A program made the translations under genes and the position numbers. A DNA stretch of 29,216 nucleotides, taken from IMG/VR virus record IMGVR_UViG_3300008450_000324, positions 1 to 29,216 of that record, one strand, 5' to 3'. This document shows positions 22,925 through 29,216 of the stretch, in pieces. How positions within the stretch are numbered: the first letter of the stretch is position 1; every line of letters begins with the position of its first letter. The notes under the pieces were generated by a model that was not told the DNA's origin, ran no database searches, and saw nothing but the letters and a program-made list of their open reading frames with translations. This stretch comes from a virus.

Positions 22925-24505
22925 ATGCAATTATTTGGATTTGAAATCAAAAGAGCAAAGGAAGAGCCTGTTGAATCTTTTGCCCCAGAGGTAAAAGACG
23001 ACGGTGCTCTCGTAGTAGCAGCTGGTGGTGCTTACGGTACATATATTGACCTAGACGGCACTGCACGCACAGAAGCTGAACTTGTCTCAAAATACCGTGA
23101 AGTATCTTTACATCCAGAAATAGAAATGGCAATAGATGATATTGTCAATGAAGCTATTGATACAGATGCTAGTTCTATAGTAGAACTTAATACGGATAAA
23201 CTTAACTACTCTGATTCAGTAAAAGATAAGATCAGAGATGAGTTTGATACTATTCTTGAATTATTTAATTTTCAAAACGAAGCATACGAATTATTTAAAA
23301 GATGGTATATTGATGGTAGAATGTACTATCATGTTATCATCGATGAAGAAAATCCTCGTAATGGTATTAAAGAACTTCGCTATGTTGATCCACGTAAAAT
23401 CCGTAAAGTTCGCGAAGTAAGAAGAAAATCTAAAAGTGGAATTACAGTAACAAATACTCAAAGAGAGTATTATGTTTATAACGACCGTACTTTTTTACCT
23501 GCTGGTGGTAATGCTGGTGTTCCAATGGATACTACTAGTACTGCAGGTATAAGAATAGCTACCGATGCTATTTTACACTGTACTTCAGGTCTTATGGATA
23601 AGAATAATGCAATGGTGTATTCTTATCTACAAAAAGCAATTAAACCTCTTAATCAATTAAGAACATTAGAAGATGCTACTGTCATTTATCGTATCTCTCG
23701 CGCTCCTGAACGCCGTATCTTCTATATTGATGTCGGTAATCTTCCTAAAGCAAAAGCAGAACAATATCTAAGAGATATGATGGTTCGCCATAAAAACCGA
23801 CTAGTATATGATGCTGCTACTGGTGAAATTCGTGACGATCGTAAGTATATGACTATGCTAGAAGATTATTGGTTACCTCGTCGTGAAGGTAATCGTGGTA
23901 CAGAAATAACCACACTACCTGCCGGTCAAAATCTCGGTGAAATGGCAGATGTTCAATATTTTCAGAGAAAATTATTTCAATCTCTTAACGTTCCTATGTC
24001 TAGATTAGAACCTTCTTCTGCAGGATTTAATTTAGGACGTGCAGCAGAAATATCTCGAGATGAAGTTAAGTTTACAAAATTTATTGGTCGTCTCCGTAGA
24101 AGATTCTCTCAGTTACTTTTAAAAGCTTTAGAAAAGCAATTAATACTTAAAGGTGTAGTTTCTGAATCTGACTGGCCTGAGATTGCAAATAACATTAATT
24201 TTGATTTTACTATTGATAATCACTTTGAAGAGTTTAAAGAAGCAGAAGTTTTAACTAATAGACTTCAATTGTTAAATAATGTTCAGCCTTTTATCGGTAA
24301 ATATTTTTCAGATATGTGGGTTCGTAAAAACATACTCATGCAAACAGATGAAGATATAAAACAGATGATGGAAGAGATTTCCATGGAACCTATGCCAGAA
24401 TCTGAGATTAATACTTTAAATTCACAGGTTCAACCAGAAGAAGAACAACAAACTCCTGCAATCCCGTTAAAACCTAATGTACCAGGTGCAGGAAATTCAA
24501 GGTAA
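22925..24505 (+). CDS. gp20: Portal vertex protein gp20
   Basis: A 526-residue portal protein (T4: 524) forming the dodecameric gate for DNA entry and exit and the starting point of head assembly (established). Seen: HPEIEMAIDDIVNEAID (62-78), ILHCTSGLMDKNNAMVYSYL, PERRIFYIDVGNLPKAKAEQ, VRHKNRLVYDAATGEIRDDR, and the YWLPRREGNRGTEITTLPAG signature, followed by NVPMSRLEP. The C-terminal tail after about residue 480 is acidic and Pro-rich. It has its own late promoter and an AAGGAC site. Fully intact. Confidence 0.97.
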   Translation: MQLFGFEIKRAKEEPVESFAPEVKDDGALVVAAGGAYGTYIDLDGTARTEAELVSKYREVSLHPEIEMAIDDIVNEAIDTDASSIVELNTDKLNYSDSVKDKIRDEFDTILELFNFQNEAYELFKRWYIDGRMYYHVIIDEENPRNGIKELRYVDPRKIRKVREVRRKSKSGITVTNTQREYYVYNDRTFLPAGGNAGVPMDTTSTAGIRIATDAILHCTSGLMDKNNAMVYSYLQKAIKPLNQLRTLEDATVIYRISRAPERRIFYIDVGNLPKAKAEQYLRDMMVRHKNRLVYDAATGEIRDDRKYMTMLEDYWLPRREGNRGTEITTLPAGQNLGEMADVQYFQRKLFQSLNVPMSRLEPSSAGFNLGRAAEISRDEVKFTKFIGRLRRRFSQLLLKALEKQLILKGVVSESDWPEIANNINFDFTIDNHFEEFKEAEVLTNRLQLLNNVQPFIGKYFSDMWVRKNILMQTDEDIKQMMEEISMEPMPESEINTLNSQVQPEEEQQTPAIPLKPNVPGAGNSR

Positions 24506-24540: not shown

Positions 24541-24795
24541 ATGAGTAGCGTTGAAGATATTTTTGGTTATGCTTGGAATAAAGATGCAGCTAATCTTAAA
24601 GGTGCATTAGATTCTATTATGCAATCTAAGGTTGCAGATGCTGTTGGTGGTATGTATCAAGACGTTGCAGCTAGCGTTTTTGGTTCTTCTAATGGTATAG
24701 ATGCTCCAGTAGAAGAAGTTCAAGAGACCTCTCCGGATGAAAATATACAAATAGAACCAGATTCAACCGAAGGAATAACAGATGAAAACGTTTAA
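24541..24795 (+). CDS. Prohead core protein, gp67-like (putative)
   Basis: An 84-residue protein in the T4 gp67 slot, directly after the portal. T4 gp67 is 80 residues, acidic and degraded to a peptide by gp21 (established). Here residues 1-50 form a helix-prone region (SVEDIFGYAWNKDAANLKGA) and 51-84 an acidic tail rich in Glu/Asp/Pro. Length, position and the acidic end support the assignment, but sequence identity with T4 is not apparent by eye. GGAGG precedes the ATG. It overlaps the next gene by 14 bases. Confidence 0.6.
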   Translation: MSSVEDIFGYAWNKDAANLKGALDSIMQSKVADAVGGMYQDVAASVFGSSNGIDAPVEEVQETSPDENIQIEPDSTEGITDENV

Positions 24796-27199
24796 TGAGA
24801 TCATTGCTGAAATACAGCAACCTCTCTCCCAAGGAGAAAAGAACTTTAAGGACATGCATGGTTCTCTAGTTGCTATTAACAGAGATATTGTACCTGGTGT
24901 TACTGATCAAGATTTTCTTTTCAAAGGTCTAAAGAGAGAGTACGATGCTCCAACTGCTTCTTATGAAAATCAAGCAGATATTGCAGCATATGATAAAGGT
25001 CTCAAAGTAAAGGAAGTTTCCTATCCACGTCCTGGTGAAGATTACAAGCCAATAGATGCAGTAAGAAATGAAGGTGTAGAAATTAATGAATCTACTCTTT
25101 CTGCTACTGCAGCTCGTGCAGGTAAAGATATAGGCGAGCCCGGTAAGAATTTTGCTAAGATTGCTAAAGCAGCTGCTGATCGTTATGGTTCAGAAGAAGC
25201 TGGAAAAAAAGTAGCTGGTGCTATTCTCGCTAAAATGCGCGCTAATGAAGAAGTAGAGCAAGTTGATGAAGGTGGTAAAAACAACTGGGATAAAGTTGCT
25301 AGACATCATATGAATGATACTCTAAGCAATAGAATGCTCAAAAAGAAACCATTACCTACACCTGGTCCTTCTAGAGAAGCTCTTAGAAAGCTAGCAGCAC
25401 AAGCTACACACGTAGGTGCTAAAGTTAAAGAAGAAGCAGAACATGTTGAAGAAAAGACTCTTACACCTGCTGAAATGAAAAAGCGTGAAGAAGTCGCCAA
25501 GGCTTTAAAGCGTGAACATCCTGGTATGCCAATGGCACAGAAGATGGCCATTGCTACTGCAACTGCAAAAAGAGTAGCAGAAGATTTAAAAGGTGATCAA
25601 CATAAGATTGATGCTAATAAGAATAATAAGATTGACGCTCACGACTTCAAACTTTTAAGAGCTAAAAAGAAGTTAGCTGAAGAAGCTGATTTTGATTACG
25701 AAGGTGAAATGGCTAAAGCAGAACTAAATGCTATCTGTGATAAAGCTGGTGTACTTGCGGACATGTTAGAGAATGATACTCAACTTGAAGCATGGTTACA
25801 ATCAAAGATTACTAAAGCCAAGTATATGATTGATTCTGTTTACGACTATATGATGTATTCAGAACCAAACGTAAAGCAAGAGCCTGAAGATAAAGAAGAA
25901 AATGAGATGGAAGATAATTATTCTCAAAGTTCTTCTATGGCTGCTAATTATGGCTCCTTTCTTAACCGTCTAGGAGAAGAAAAAGAAGATGATGTTGATC
26001 TTTTAGTTGAAGAAACTGAAATAGATGAAGCATTAGGAACAATGGATAATATTAAGAAGGCATCTAGAGATGCAGCAACACGTGAACCAGGCTCTGCACC
26101 TTCTTGGTTAAAGAAAGCAATCAAAGACAGAGCTTCTAAGAAAGTTCAAAAAGAAGAAGTAGAACTAGAAGAAGCAGTTTCTGTAAAAAAGTCTACACAC
26201 CCATGGGGTAAAATGATTACTGTACACCATGGGTCATCTCATTCTTTTCCATTACACCCAGAACATCAAGAAGCAATTGGTAAATTAAAAGATGGTGAGA
26301 GCACCACTTTTACAGATGAAACTAAGTCTAAGGTAACTGCTCACAGAGAAGGTGATACTGTTCATCTTTCTCATCGTGGTTCAAGCACTAAGACTCCAGT
26401 TGCAATGTCTCACTTCACGGAAGAAGTAGAACAAGTTGATGAAGCCAAGCGCGGTCGTCCTCGTAAGGATGGTTCAAAACCAGCTGGTGATGATGATCAT
26501 CAAGAAGCAGATAAGAACATTCATACACAGTTACATAAAGTAATCTCAGCTAACAAGCCAGTTACTTTTAATAACGGTAAGACACATACAATAACATCTG
26601 CACATGCACATAAAGCACTCTCAATGCTTCAGAATGCAAAAGCATCTGATCGTCTTGCAATACAGCATTCACTTTCACATTCTCATGATAGATTCCATGA
26701 GACTCTCAAGACTGGTAAAGCAATAGTAGATGCTCCTCGTCCTAAGGTATCACTTGCAAAATCAGTAAAAGAAGATGCACAAGTAGATGAAGCTAGAGGT
26801 GAAGTTGCTGTTTCGGATAGAAGAGAGCGTATTGCAGTTCAAGCTACTAACCCTAAAACTGGACGCCCTGCTGTAAGATGGGCAGCATTACCTAAAAGAT
26901 CAGTAAAAGTATCAGAGGCTCTTAGTAAAGAAAATATGGCTCAAGATAGTGTAGATAAGATTAAGAAAGATCCACTCGCTTCTAAGGAAAAGATTGATCT
27001 CCCTGCTACTACTGGAAATAAGCCTATCGGTGGTGAAGGTCAAGCTTATAGTGGTAAATCTACTATGGCGGAAGAGGTTTCCCTAAATAATCTATACAAC
27101 AATTTATCTGAAAATAATAGAGTTAAATTTAATGAAAAAATGCTTACAGCAGAAGGTAAAGCTGAACTTCTTAAATTTGCTCAGGAGCAAGGGTACTAA
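24782..27199 (+). CDS. Large modular prohead-core polyprotein (gp68 slot)
   Basis: An 805-residue protein where T4 has the 141-residue gp68. No single family covers it. Visible parts in order: N-terminal region (1-100); KNFAKIAKAAADRYGSEEAG-type basic module (122-154); TPAEMKKREEVAKALKREHPG module (228-266); EF-hand/dockerin-like loop DANKNNKIDAHD (277-288); helical region (305-360); NIKKASRDAATREPGS module (423-455); a His-rich HHGSSHSFPLHPEHQ module (468-545); AT-hook KRGRPRK (556-562); a second His-rich module (577-646); a small basic beta-like module (673-714); and a C-terminal helix (768-805). Joints carry acidic linkers ending in VDE, IDE or LEE before Ala/Gly. I infer a core polyprotein for gp21 cleavage. 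Confidence 0.6.
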   Translation: MKTFNEIIAEIQQPLSQGEKNFKDMHGSLVAINRDIVPGVTDQDFLFKGLKREYDAPTASYENQADIAAYDKGLKVKEVSYPRPGEDYKPIDAVRNEGVEINESTLSATAARAGKDIGEPGKNFAKIAKAAADRYGSEEAGKKVAGAILAKMRANEEVEQVDEGGKNNWDKVARHHMNDTLSNRMLKKKPLPTPGPSREALRKLAAQATHVGAKVKEEAEHVEEKTLTPAEMKKREEVAKALKREHPGMPMAQKMAIATATAKRVAEDLKGDQHKIDANKNNKIDAHDFKLLRAKKKLAEEADFDYEGEMAKAELNAICDKAGVLADMLENDTQLEAWLQSKITKAKYMIDSVYDYMMYSEPNVKQEPEDKEENEMEDNYSQSSSMAANYGSFLNRLGEEKEDDVDLLVEETEIDEALGTMDNIKKASRDAATREPGSAPSWLKKAIKDRASKKVQKEEVELEEAVSVKKSTHPWGKMITVHHGSSHSFPLHPEHQEAIGKLKDGESTTFTDETKSKVTAHREGDTVHLSHRGSSTKTPVAMSHFTEEVEQVDEAKRGRPRKDGSKPAGDDDHQEADKNIHTQLHKVISANKPVTFNNGKTHTITSAHAHKALSMLQNAKASDRLAIQHSLSHSHDRFHETLKTGKAIVDAPRPKVSLAKSVKEDAQVDEARGEVAVSDRRERIAVQATNPKTGRPAVRWAALPKRSVKVSEALSKENMAQDSVDKIKKDPLASKEKIDLPATTGNKPIGGEGQAYSGKSTMAEEVSLNNLYNNLSENNRVKFNEKMLTAEGKAELLKFAQEQGY

Positions 27200-27201
27200 T
27201 A

Positions 27202-27474
27202 ATGTCAGCTGTGTATAAATTTTTAAGTGTATCTGCTAATACTGATTACGGTTTAGAAATAAGCCTAACAACAGCTAACACTGTTTATGGTTCAAAGCTA
27301 GTAAGAGTTACAAATGCTAATAACTCTCTTACAGTTTTAACCATTGCAAACACTACTGCTACTTACGCTAATGTAACTCTTACTCCTTATGAAGCTGTAA
27401 ATGTAGAAAAAGCTACTACAGATACTTTAACTGGAACTAATTTAAGAGCAGTACAAATTGCTTATAGGAACTAA
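27202..27474 (+). CDS. Small head-region protein, unknown
   Basis: A 90-residue, Thr/Asn/Val-rich, beta-looking protein (TANTVYGSKLVRVTNANN, then NATYANVTLTPYEAVNVEKA and ending RAVQIAYRN). No signal peptide or membrane segment. It is inserted between the core polyprotein and gp21, where T4 has no gene. AGGAG sits inside the end of the preceding gene. Pattern and composition resemble the 120-residue protein at 3182, suggesting a common small beta-sandwich type, possibly head decoration or completion. Function unknown. Confidence 0.62.
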   Translation: MSAVYKFLSVSANTDYGLEISLTTANTVYGSKLVRVTNANNSLTVLTIANTTATYANVTLTPYEAVNVEKATTDTLTGTNLRAVQIAYRN

Positions 27475-27476
27475 CA

Positions 27477-28136
27477 ATGAAACTCATTACTGAAGTCGTA
27501 GAAGACGTAAAAATTATAACTGAAGAAGGTGTAGAAGGCAAAAAGAGTCTTTACATTGAATGTATATTTTTACAAGGCAATTTAAAGAACCGTAACGGTC
27601 GTAAATATCCTACTGAGCTTCTTGCTAAAGAAGTTGATAGATACCGTGCAGAGCAAATTGATAAAAATCGTGCATACGGTGAGCTAGGTCATCCTTCTGG
27701 ACCATCTATCAATCTAGAACGAGTATCTCATATGATTAAATCACTCGTTCAAGAAGGCGATAATTTCATTGGACGTGCTAAAATTATGGACACTCCTTAT
27801 GGTAATATCGTGAGTAATCTTATGAAAGAAGGTGCTCTTCTAGGTGTTTCTTCTAGAGGCATGGGTTCTCTAGTTGAAAGAAACGGTATTATGGAAGTCC
27901 AAGGAGATTTCTATCTAGCTACTGCTGCTGACATAGTAGCAGATCCATCCGCTCCTGATGCATTCGTAAATGGCATCATGGAAGGTGTAGAATGGATCTG
28001 GGATAATGGTGTTCTCAAAGCTAGCCAATTAGAAAAGGCTAAGCAAGTAATCAATGAAGCAGCATCTAAAAAAGATAAAAAACAATTAGAAGAAGCTAAG
28101 ATACGAGTTTTTAAACATTTTCTTTCAAATATGTAA
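27477..28136 (+). CDS. gp21: Prohead maturation protease gp21
   Basis: A 219-residue serine protease (T4: 212) that assembles in the prohead core and trims scaffold, core and capsid proteins after (I/L)-x-Glu (established). Seen: NGRKYPTELL (40-49), AYGELGHPSGP with the catalytic His72, MDTPYGNIVSNLMKEGALLG (104-123) and GVSSRGMG with Ser125/126 as the nucleophile. Near the C-terminus are two sites fitting its own rule, INE|A (194/195) and LEE|A (206/207), consistent with known self-processing. The ATG is two bases after the previous stop; AGGAAC lies before it. Intact. Confidence 0.95.
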   Translation: MKLITEVVEDVKIITEEGVEGKKSLYIECIFLQGNLKNRNGRKYPTELLAKEVDRYRAEQIDKNRAYGELGHPSGPSINLERVSHMIKSLVQEGDNFIGRAKIMDTPYGNIVSNLMKEGALLGVSSRGMGSLVERNGIMEVQGDFYLATAADIVADPSAPDAFVNGIMEGVEWIWDNGVLKASQLEKAKQVINEAASKKDKKQLEEAKIRVFKHFLSNM

Positions 28137-28174: not shown

Positions 28175-29216
28175 ATGTCTGACACAGAATTAAACAAAGA
28201 AGATCAAGTAATCGATAGCGGTGCAGAAGCCGTTGTTGAGGATGCATCTTCAAATCAAGCATCTATCGCTGGTAACGAAACTGTTTCAAAGTCTGACCTT
28301 CTTGCAAAGATGGTAGCATATGCATCAAAGATGAGTGCTGACACTCTTGCACAGGCAGTAGAAACTATTTCAAAATCAAACGATGACATTTATAACGCTA
28401 ACAAAGCAGCTCAAGATGCAGTTGGCGACAATTCAGATAAAAACAAAGCTTCAATTAAATCATCTGGTGCACATGCAGATGCAATGCAGTCAGTAAAAGA
28501 AGATCTTGAAGTAGTATTTGGTGGTTCAGAAGATCTATCAGAAGACTTCAAATCAAAGATTTCTACAATTTTTGAAGCAGCTGTATCAACTAGAGTTAAT
28601 CTTGAAGTTGCAAAGGTACAGGAAGATTTCGAAGCTAAAGCAAAGAGCTTAGAAGAACAATATGCAGCAGATTTAGAAGAATCAGTAAACAACATTTCAA
28701 CTGAAATGGTTGAAAATGTAGATTCATATCTAAACTATGCTGTAGCCGAATGGATCCAAGAAAATAAGCTTGCTATTGAGCAAAATATCAGAACTGATAT
28801 TGCTGAGTCATTCATTAACGGTCTTAAGGCAGTATTTACTGAACACTACATCGATATCCCAGAAGATAAAGTTAACGTTGTAGAGTCATTAGCTGCTGAA
28901 GTTGAAGAACTTAAGAGCCGTCTTAATGAAACAACTGAAAAGAATATCGAGCTTATGAAAGTTGTTACTACAAAAGAAGTAGCAGATATCACTGCTTCTT
29001 TCTCAGAAGGAATGACTGACACTCAGAAAGATAAGTTTGTAAAGCTCACTGAAGCAATCGACTTTTCTGATGTTGCTGAGTTTCGCAAAAAGATAGCTAT
29101 CATCAAGGAAACATACTTCCCATCAAAGGCTGAAGTAAAGGTTACTGAAGATCAGCTTCTTAATGAGACAGTAGAAGAGCCTGTAAAGGAAGCTTCTCTT
29201 GATCCTAACATGGCAC
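28175..29216 (+). CDS. gp22: Prohead scaffold core protein gp22, 3' end outside
   Basis: Open from the ATG at 28175 to the right edge, at least 347 codons, with no stop inside the window. The protein is acidic, helix-rich and low in Pro, as expected for the scaffold core that guides capsid assembly and is then digested by gp21 (established). A conserved stretch near residues 180-250 (SYLNYAVAEWIQENKLAIEQ-like, with NGLKAVFTEHYIDIPEDKV after it, in the frame) matches T4-like gp22. T4 gp22 is 269 residues, so this one is notably longer. AAGGAG lies before the ATG. It follows gp21 in T4 order; the capsid gene gp23 would be expected next. Confidence 0.9.
   Translation, partial: MSDTELNKEDQVIDSGAEAVVEDASSNQASIAGNETVSKSDLLAKMVAYASKMSADTLAQAVETISKSNDDIYNANKAAQDAVGDNSDKNKASIKSSGAHADAMQSVKEDLEVVFGGSEDLSEDFKSKISTIFEAAVSTRVNLEVAKVQEDFEAKAKSLEEQYAADLEESVNNISTEMVENVDSYLNYAVAEWIQENKLAIEQNIRTDIAESFINGLKAVFTEHYIDIPEDKVNVVESLAAEVEELKSRLNETTEKNIELMKVVTTKEVADITASFSEGMTDTQKDKFVKLTEAIDFSDVAEFRKKIAIIKETYFPSKAEVKVTEDQLLNETVEEPVKEASLDPNMA

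Follow-up and report, generated by a model that had tools for sequence, protein, structure and literature searches.

In phage T4 (Straboviridae) the internal proteins IPI, IPII and IPIII, described by Black and co-workers, share a 10-residue capsid-targeting sequence (CTS) pattern ending in hydrophobic-x-E. CTS mutants of T4 assign residues 4 and 7 to targeting and residues 8 and 10 to processing, and the literature gives the rule of the T4 protease gp21 as L/I-x-E, nothing more (PMC9026906). Replacing the CTS Glu by Asp blocks processing in T4 (PMC9026906). In T4, each of the core proteins gp22, gp67 and gp68 is cleaved into several fragments, and these mostly leave the head (PMC9026906; PMC5694885). 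In giant phages of the phiKZ/SPN3US type, injected head proteins are released by a Glu-specific prohead protease recognizing x-x-Glu, with several sites per chain (PMC5694885). Polyvalent proteins of phages and conjugative elements are also multi-domain chains, thought to be delivered with the DNA and separated by proteolysis (Iyer et al. 2017, PMC5512222); beyond that paper, the literature searched yielded no description of a phage polyprotein of the kind analyzed here.

Gene order and content of the slot before gp21

The window, meaning the whole stretch of DNA that was analyzed (29,216 bases), is the complete IMG/VR record of a T4-like phage. Its genes run in the order sheath, tube, portal gp20, a gp67-like ORF, an 805-aa ORF, a 90-aa ORF, gp21 and gp22 (Table 1). 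The gp67-like ORF overlaps the start of the long gene by 14 nt, and this small ORF recurs there in many relatives. In the 90-aa ORF (27202-27474) small and hydrophobic residues alternate; a similar ORF recurs at this position in relatives, and it had no family match with known function.

The first-pass annotation gave the long gene as 805 residues at 24782-27199, which is correct, and placed it at the T4 gp68 position. The location between the gp67-like ORF and gp21 agrees with that, but there is no detectable homology to T4 gp68. When the N-terminal domain family was compared with seven gp68 sequences, hhalign probability was 1% or less; at this sensitivity homology to gp68 is undetected and the slot alone is in common, although the two may be remotely related. 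Searches of PHROGs, Pfam and NCBIfam with the 805-aa protein returned nothing above the cut-off, the PDB contained no match by sequence, and tblastn against cultured phages found short partial matches only.

Table 1. Features of the window and predicted cassettes of the 805-aa protein (the arrow marks a predicted cut).
Feature	Position	Strand	Remarks
Portal gp20	22925-24505		
gp67-like small ORF, 84 aa	24541..24795	+	by position; no significant family match
Predicted mosaic polyprotein gene, 805 aa, gp68 slot	24782..27199	+	
CTS MKTFNEIIAE, predicted cut after E10	24782..24811	+	likeness to T4 IPII/IPIII
Conserved N-terminal domain m1, aa 11-103	24812..25090	+	first in 45/45 contigs; alignment A1
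Cassette A, aa 104-163, INE↓S ... VDE↓G	25091..25270	+	17 contigs; P1 Glu 11/12 contexts
Linker/cassette, aa 164-224, ends VEE↓K	25271..25453	+	
Cassette B, aa 225-267, KTLTPAEM...	25454..25582	+	22 contigs; P1 Glu 17/17
Cassette C, aa 268-300, EF-hand/dockerin-like loop DANKNNKIDAHDF	25583..25681	+	21 contigs
Cassette D and acidic linker, aa 301-416, ends IDE↓A	25682..26029	+	28 contigs; model helices 306-359
Cassette E, aa 417-464, IDE↓A ... LEE↓A	26030..26173	+	both orders with F
Cassette F, aa 465-554, LEE↓A ... VDE↓A	26174..26443	+	6 contigs; LEE↓A 4/4
Cassette G, aa 555-670, AKRGRP AT-hook-like start and helical domain	26444..26791	+	36 contigs
Basic piece, aa 671-712, VDE↓A ... VSE↓A	26792..26917	+	net +6
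C-terminal unit H+Z, aa 713-805	26918..27199	+	H then Z 24/25; Z last 36/36
ORF of 90 aa, small and beta-rich-looking, ahead of gp21	27202..27474	+	
gp21 head-maturation protease, presumed cutter	27477..28136	+	PHROG 207 E 5e-80; Pfam Peptidase_S77 8e-37
gp22 head scaffold; contig ends here	28175..29216	+	PHROG 237 E 1e-70; Pfam T4_CASP

An AlphaFold2 model built from 22 aligned sequences (mean pLDDT 60) predicts folded islands in A (121-155), B (229-265), D (306-360), F (489-530), G (575-655) and Z (762-805). Most of the predicted cut sites fall in stretches modeled as disordered: those at 10, 103, 163, 464, 554, 670 and 712 are in segments under 50 pLDDT, and those at 416 and 224 are just outside such segments. 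The core of cassette G has pLDDT 92-96. Modeled alone, cassette G is helical and without a significant match in a fold search of the PDB. The top matches in BFVD are for the most part long Caudovirales proteins without annotation, some named 'EF-hand domain-containing'; the proteins matched are possibly polyproteins of the same kind. The full-length model searched against the PDB by fold gave only scores of Z below 6, which is uninformative, and absence there proves nothing.

Cassette shuffling among relatives

With the polyprotein, gp21 and the N-terminal domain as queries, 11, 80 and 74 loci were found, respectively. The interval between gp67 and gp21 in these relatives holds ORFs of about 200-1,050 aa, and many contigs have it split into two or three ORFs. 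Naive segmentation at each site fused most of the pieces via their linkers, so HMMs were used to map the cassettes (17 cassette seeds onto 75 slot ORFs). This resulted in 59 distinct architectures, in which about 15 cassettes occur in changing order. Swaps include E-F/F-E and C-D/D-C, cassette A is found both early and late, and cassette I reaches 3 copies per chain. The two ends are fixed, with the N-terminal CTS domain first in 45/45 and the C-terminal domain Z last in 36/36. From phage to phage, the comparison shows cassettes being acquired, lost, duplicated and moved, with fixed ends.

Individual cassettes differ in how widely they were found. Cassette B is present in at least 387 IMG/VR loci; of 51 distinct examples examined, 7 had no gp20, gp21 or gp22 nearby. 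Cassette C has weak EF-hand/dockerin similarity in a relative. The basic piece at aa 671-712 had no relative among the slot proteins. One 202-kb record contains, about 95 kb from its slot polyprotein, a second cassette-type ORF of 789 aa (L181:1012-3381) that carries cassette D together with Pfam DUF6321.

The linkers named in the first-pass annotation, EEVEQVDE at 156-163 and 547-554 and ETEIDE at 411-416, are present, and the pattern it proposed as a test, conserved linkers between shuffled modules, is strongly supported by the 75 slot ORFs and by the Glu at 86/87 junctions. Its description of the pieces as mostly basic holds for five of them, but the whole chain has a pI of 6.4 and the piece 266-416 is strongly acidic (net -22).

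Capsid-targeting sequence and cassette junctions

Judged by its first ten residues, the N-terminus of the 805-aa protein is a T4 IPII/IPIII-like CTS. MKTFNEIIAE↓I is identical at 7/10 positions to MKTYQEFIAE↓A of T4 IPII/IPIII (read from NC_000866). Residues of the expected type occupy all four positions identified by the T4 mutants: an aromatic at 4, hydrophobic residues at 7 and 8, and E10, which is invariant in an alignment of 10 relatives (A1). Relatives begin, for example, with MKTFKELVSE↓V, MKTFKQLISE↓V, MKSFKEFINE↓V or MKTYKTLIGE↓V, and a strict T4-like CTS pattern is fitted by 14/57 relatives vs 0/114 control ORFs. The proposed link to the T4 internal proteins is strongly supported by this CTS, which had been overlooked.

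The seven bonds first listed as cut sites (103, 163, 416, 464, 554, 670 and 712) are exactly all the [ILV]xE[AGS] matches in the protein. Shuffles give 3.0 (P=0.028), a weak excess, so the case rests on the relatives. The narrower pattern [ILV][DE]E[AGS], chosen post hoc, occurs 5 times vs 0.5, a count reached by 0/5000 shuffles. Pooled over 70 de-duplicated slot proteins, [ILV]xE[AGS] occurs 150 times vs 79 +/- 8.8. Equally good sites missing from the list are IAE↓I (10/11), VEE↓K (224/225) and VAE↓D (267/268).

Nine cassette-start families (A, B, F, RGRP, I, J, K, Q, L), picked post hoc with their boundaries already seen, supplied 87 distinct junction contexts after removal of 16 double-counted KRGRP frames. 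P1 is Glu in 86/87 and P3 is I/L/V in 83/87; P2, P4 and P1' are variable. The RGRP start of cassette G has [ILV]xE at the join in 23/23. An agnostic test points the same way: the ends of similarity blocks fall on the Glu of [ILV]xE at 4.1x background vs 1.8 for other Glu. In addition, there are 2.2 sites per 100 residues outside and 1.0 inside cassette cores. Other cassettes are not regularly preceded by a site (C 7/22, D 16/27, H 6/25, M 2/8, Z 19/36), so not every cassette would be freed; on these counts C-D and H-Z may remain joined.

Val at P3 is outside the strict T4 L/I-x-E rule. At the orthologous CTS site P3 is I/L/V in 41/6/5 cases (the relatives are one family and the events are not independent), and since the three residues interchange there, V-D-E is read as equivalent to I-D-E. 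Some linkers have Thr at P3 (EEVEQTDE, in loci L018 and L019).

The first-pass rule of Ala, Gly or Ser at P1' was too strict, as close relatives have a predicted gp23 site of the form LxE↓T/V/A/L. Likely gp23 maturation sites there, inferred by position, are LNE↓T, LFE↓T, LLE↓V, LAE↓V and LME↓L; locus L013, whose gp21 is 95% identical to that of the window, has LFE↓T. Across the gp23-carrying loci (L013, L014, L027 and others) P1' of the likely site is T, V or L vs Ala in T4. P1' at the junctions depends on the cassette: A/S/T before A, K/R/T before B, A/G before RGRP and L/I/V before I. T, V and L would fit the gp21 of this clade because the predicted gp23 sites carry them. For Lys before cassette B, the one line of support comes from the sequences of stand-alone CTS genes.

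In such genes, cassettes known as internal units of the polyproteins directly follow a CTS-like N-terminus, and the join is at the same Glu. Several cassette B sequences, G, I and J were seen in this position. MNLFHLRNKLDE↓KTLTPAEM, for example, is a CTS-like N-terminus joined to cassette B in a 121-aa gene in the same slot, and MKSFDQIRE↓KHLTPAEM, MIPFKILRTNISE↓KTLTPAEM and MKTFNSLRSSLEE↓KKLTPAEM have the same arrangement. MKSIKEIFEE↓GRGRPRK is a stand-alone CTS and cassette G gene in a 164-kb record, far from head genes. Further CTS-like joins are MRSKILAE↓ISKKTL (Caulobacter phage Cr30) and MITNENVQYLDE↓VLKASDP. The Glu at the junctions and the Glu at the CTS end are therefore most naturally read as one kind of protease site.

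A 161-aa ORF with cassettes C and M (L183:506-991) immediately precedes the stand-alone CTS-G gene and is likewise remote from the head genes. The cultured phage Cr30 encodes a 682-aa cassette polyprotein (KF301602 29635-31683; L093:6759-8807) with the N-terminus MRSKILAE↓I and four LSKKTL-type cassettes; its gene is outside the gp20-gp21 slot, a short way downstream of one for a cytidylyltransferase. In Sinorhizobium phage phiM12 the slot protein is minimal (136 aa, MKSFKQLVE↓T...) and matches cassette G weakly.

Cyanophage cytidylyltransferases (L285:2677-3834, L286:2683-3843, L288:2890-3978) start with a T4-type CTS, MKKFSAFLTE↓A in Syn33 and P-SSM7 and MRFRQFIIE↓A in S-SZBM1_140, and cassette M is common to neighboring cyanophage ORFs. 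The S-SZBM1 cytidylyltransferase was detected by mass spectrometry in CsCl-purified virions (PMC9146016). A cytidylyltransferase was also found in S-CREM2, where the authors warn of a possible contaminant (PMC10665884). These enzymes support the targeting logic, not the cutting of the slot polyprotein. S-SZBM1_139, also found in virions, was considered as a cassette-bearing relative and rejected; its similarity to cassettes is of low complexity only, and it is therefore not used as evidence.

Fate of the chain and comparison with known systems

The gene probably encodes a CTS-targeted mosaic head-cargo polyprotein that is cut by gp21. The whole chain would enter the prohead core by its single CTS tag, as the likeness of the first 10 residues to T4 IPII/IPIII suggests. 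From the conservation of (I/L/V)-x-E, gp21, encoded two ORFs downstream, would then remove the tag and cut at most of the joins between cassettes, which would free several small folded units (A, B, F, G and others). Core targeting and gp21 cutting at many junctions are inferred with good support. The most speculative step is retention and injection, in which at least some pieces would stay in the head, DNA-bound, and enter the host with the DNA as T4 internal proteins do. Other pieces (the CTS, the acidic linkers, perhaps m1 and Z) may have a role in the core only and then leave. A fuller version is tentative, a little short of an even chance: aquatic T4-like phages may use a recombining cargo array, loading a changing set of small injected proteins on one chain with one tag, with acidic linkers that would be both gp21 cut sites and joints for cassette swaps.

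It is conceivable, if rather unlikely, that the chain is targeted and cut and that its pieces are scaffold or head-size filler, expelled before DNA packaging, with none injected. The slot is the one that gp67 and gp68 occupy in T4, where fragments of these proteins and of gp22 mostly leave the head (PMC9026906; PMC5694885). Total length also varies freely, about 200-1050 aa, as filler could, and the linkers and Z are acidic. However, fast gain, loss and shuffling of folded domains is more like cargo than like a shape-determining scaffold, cassette G has an AT-hook-like RGRP start, and some cassettes are stand-alone CTS genes far from the head cluster.

A still less probable reading is an uncut multidomain virion protein, one protein after CTS removal, in which the acidic (I/L/V)xE linkers are only flexible spacers spread by recombination. 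Linker sequences are similar and could have been passed on together with the cassettes, and their 5' GAAGAA codons resemble each other more than codon use would predict. The codons at the P1 end do not (0.60 vs 0.72 expected), so conservation there is at the protein level; as a copied recombination patch the linker DNA was rejected, with a mixed signal confined to the first two Glu codons. Selective retention of P1 Glu and hydrophobic P3 among varying P2, P4 and P1' also argues against passive spacers, as does the same Glu being the CTS end in stand-alone genes. That the motif hits and linkers are a chance artefact of a Glu-rich disordered protein, for which the weak single-protein count leaves some room, is highly improbable, and for the family as a whole it is refuted by the pooled motif excess, the cassette architectures and the junction Glu kept across unrelated neighbors.

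Overall, the modular polyprotein, the Glu junctions and the T4 internal-protein link of the first-pass reading are supported, and its P1' rule is too strict. If the gp21-cut cargo reading is true, one gene would let a phage load many different proteins cheaply, and the cassettes would amount to a list of candidate anti-defence or take-over proteins, most of them lacking a known domain. The evolution of gp21 specificity and of capsid targeting could also be put to a concrete test, and the large unannotated ORFs that recur in metagenomic T4-like phage contigs would be explained.

In phiKZ/SPN3US-type phages, propeptides are removed from separate proteins; the passages of PMC5694885 examined describe no cassette-shuffled polyprotein. 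Polyvalent proteins have an embedded peptidase or known effector enzyme domains. Neither was recognized by Pfam above the cut-off in the window protein, and the only hit in the relatives scanned was DUF6321, which belongs to another phage and a different ORF; the protein is therefore not polyvalent in the sense of PMC5512222. Here the units are about 40-120 aa and the cutter would be the separate gp21. The T4 core proteins gp67, gp68 and gp22 share the slot before gene 21 and have many gp21-type sites per chain, but the slot polyproteins are up to about seven times longer than T4 gp68 and cassette-shuffled. By analogy with the T4 internal proteins, the chain would be expected to follow the prohead-core route and the gp21 cut, with variable content behind a conserved tag. 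It is not short and single-domain as they are, having 805 aa and at least six folded islands in the model. T4 internal proteins are encoded by separate single-domain genes far from gene 21, whereas here many cassettes share one tag and one chain within the head cluster.
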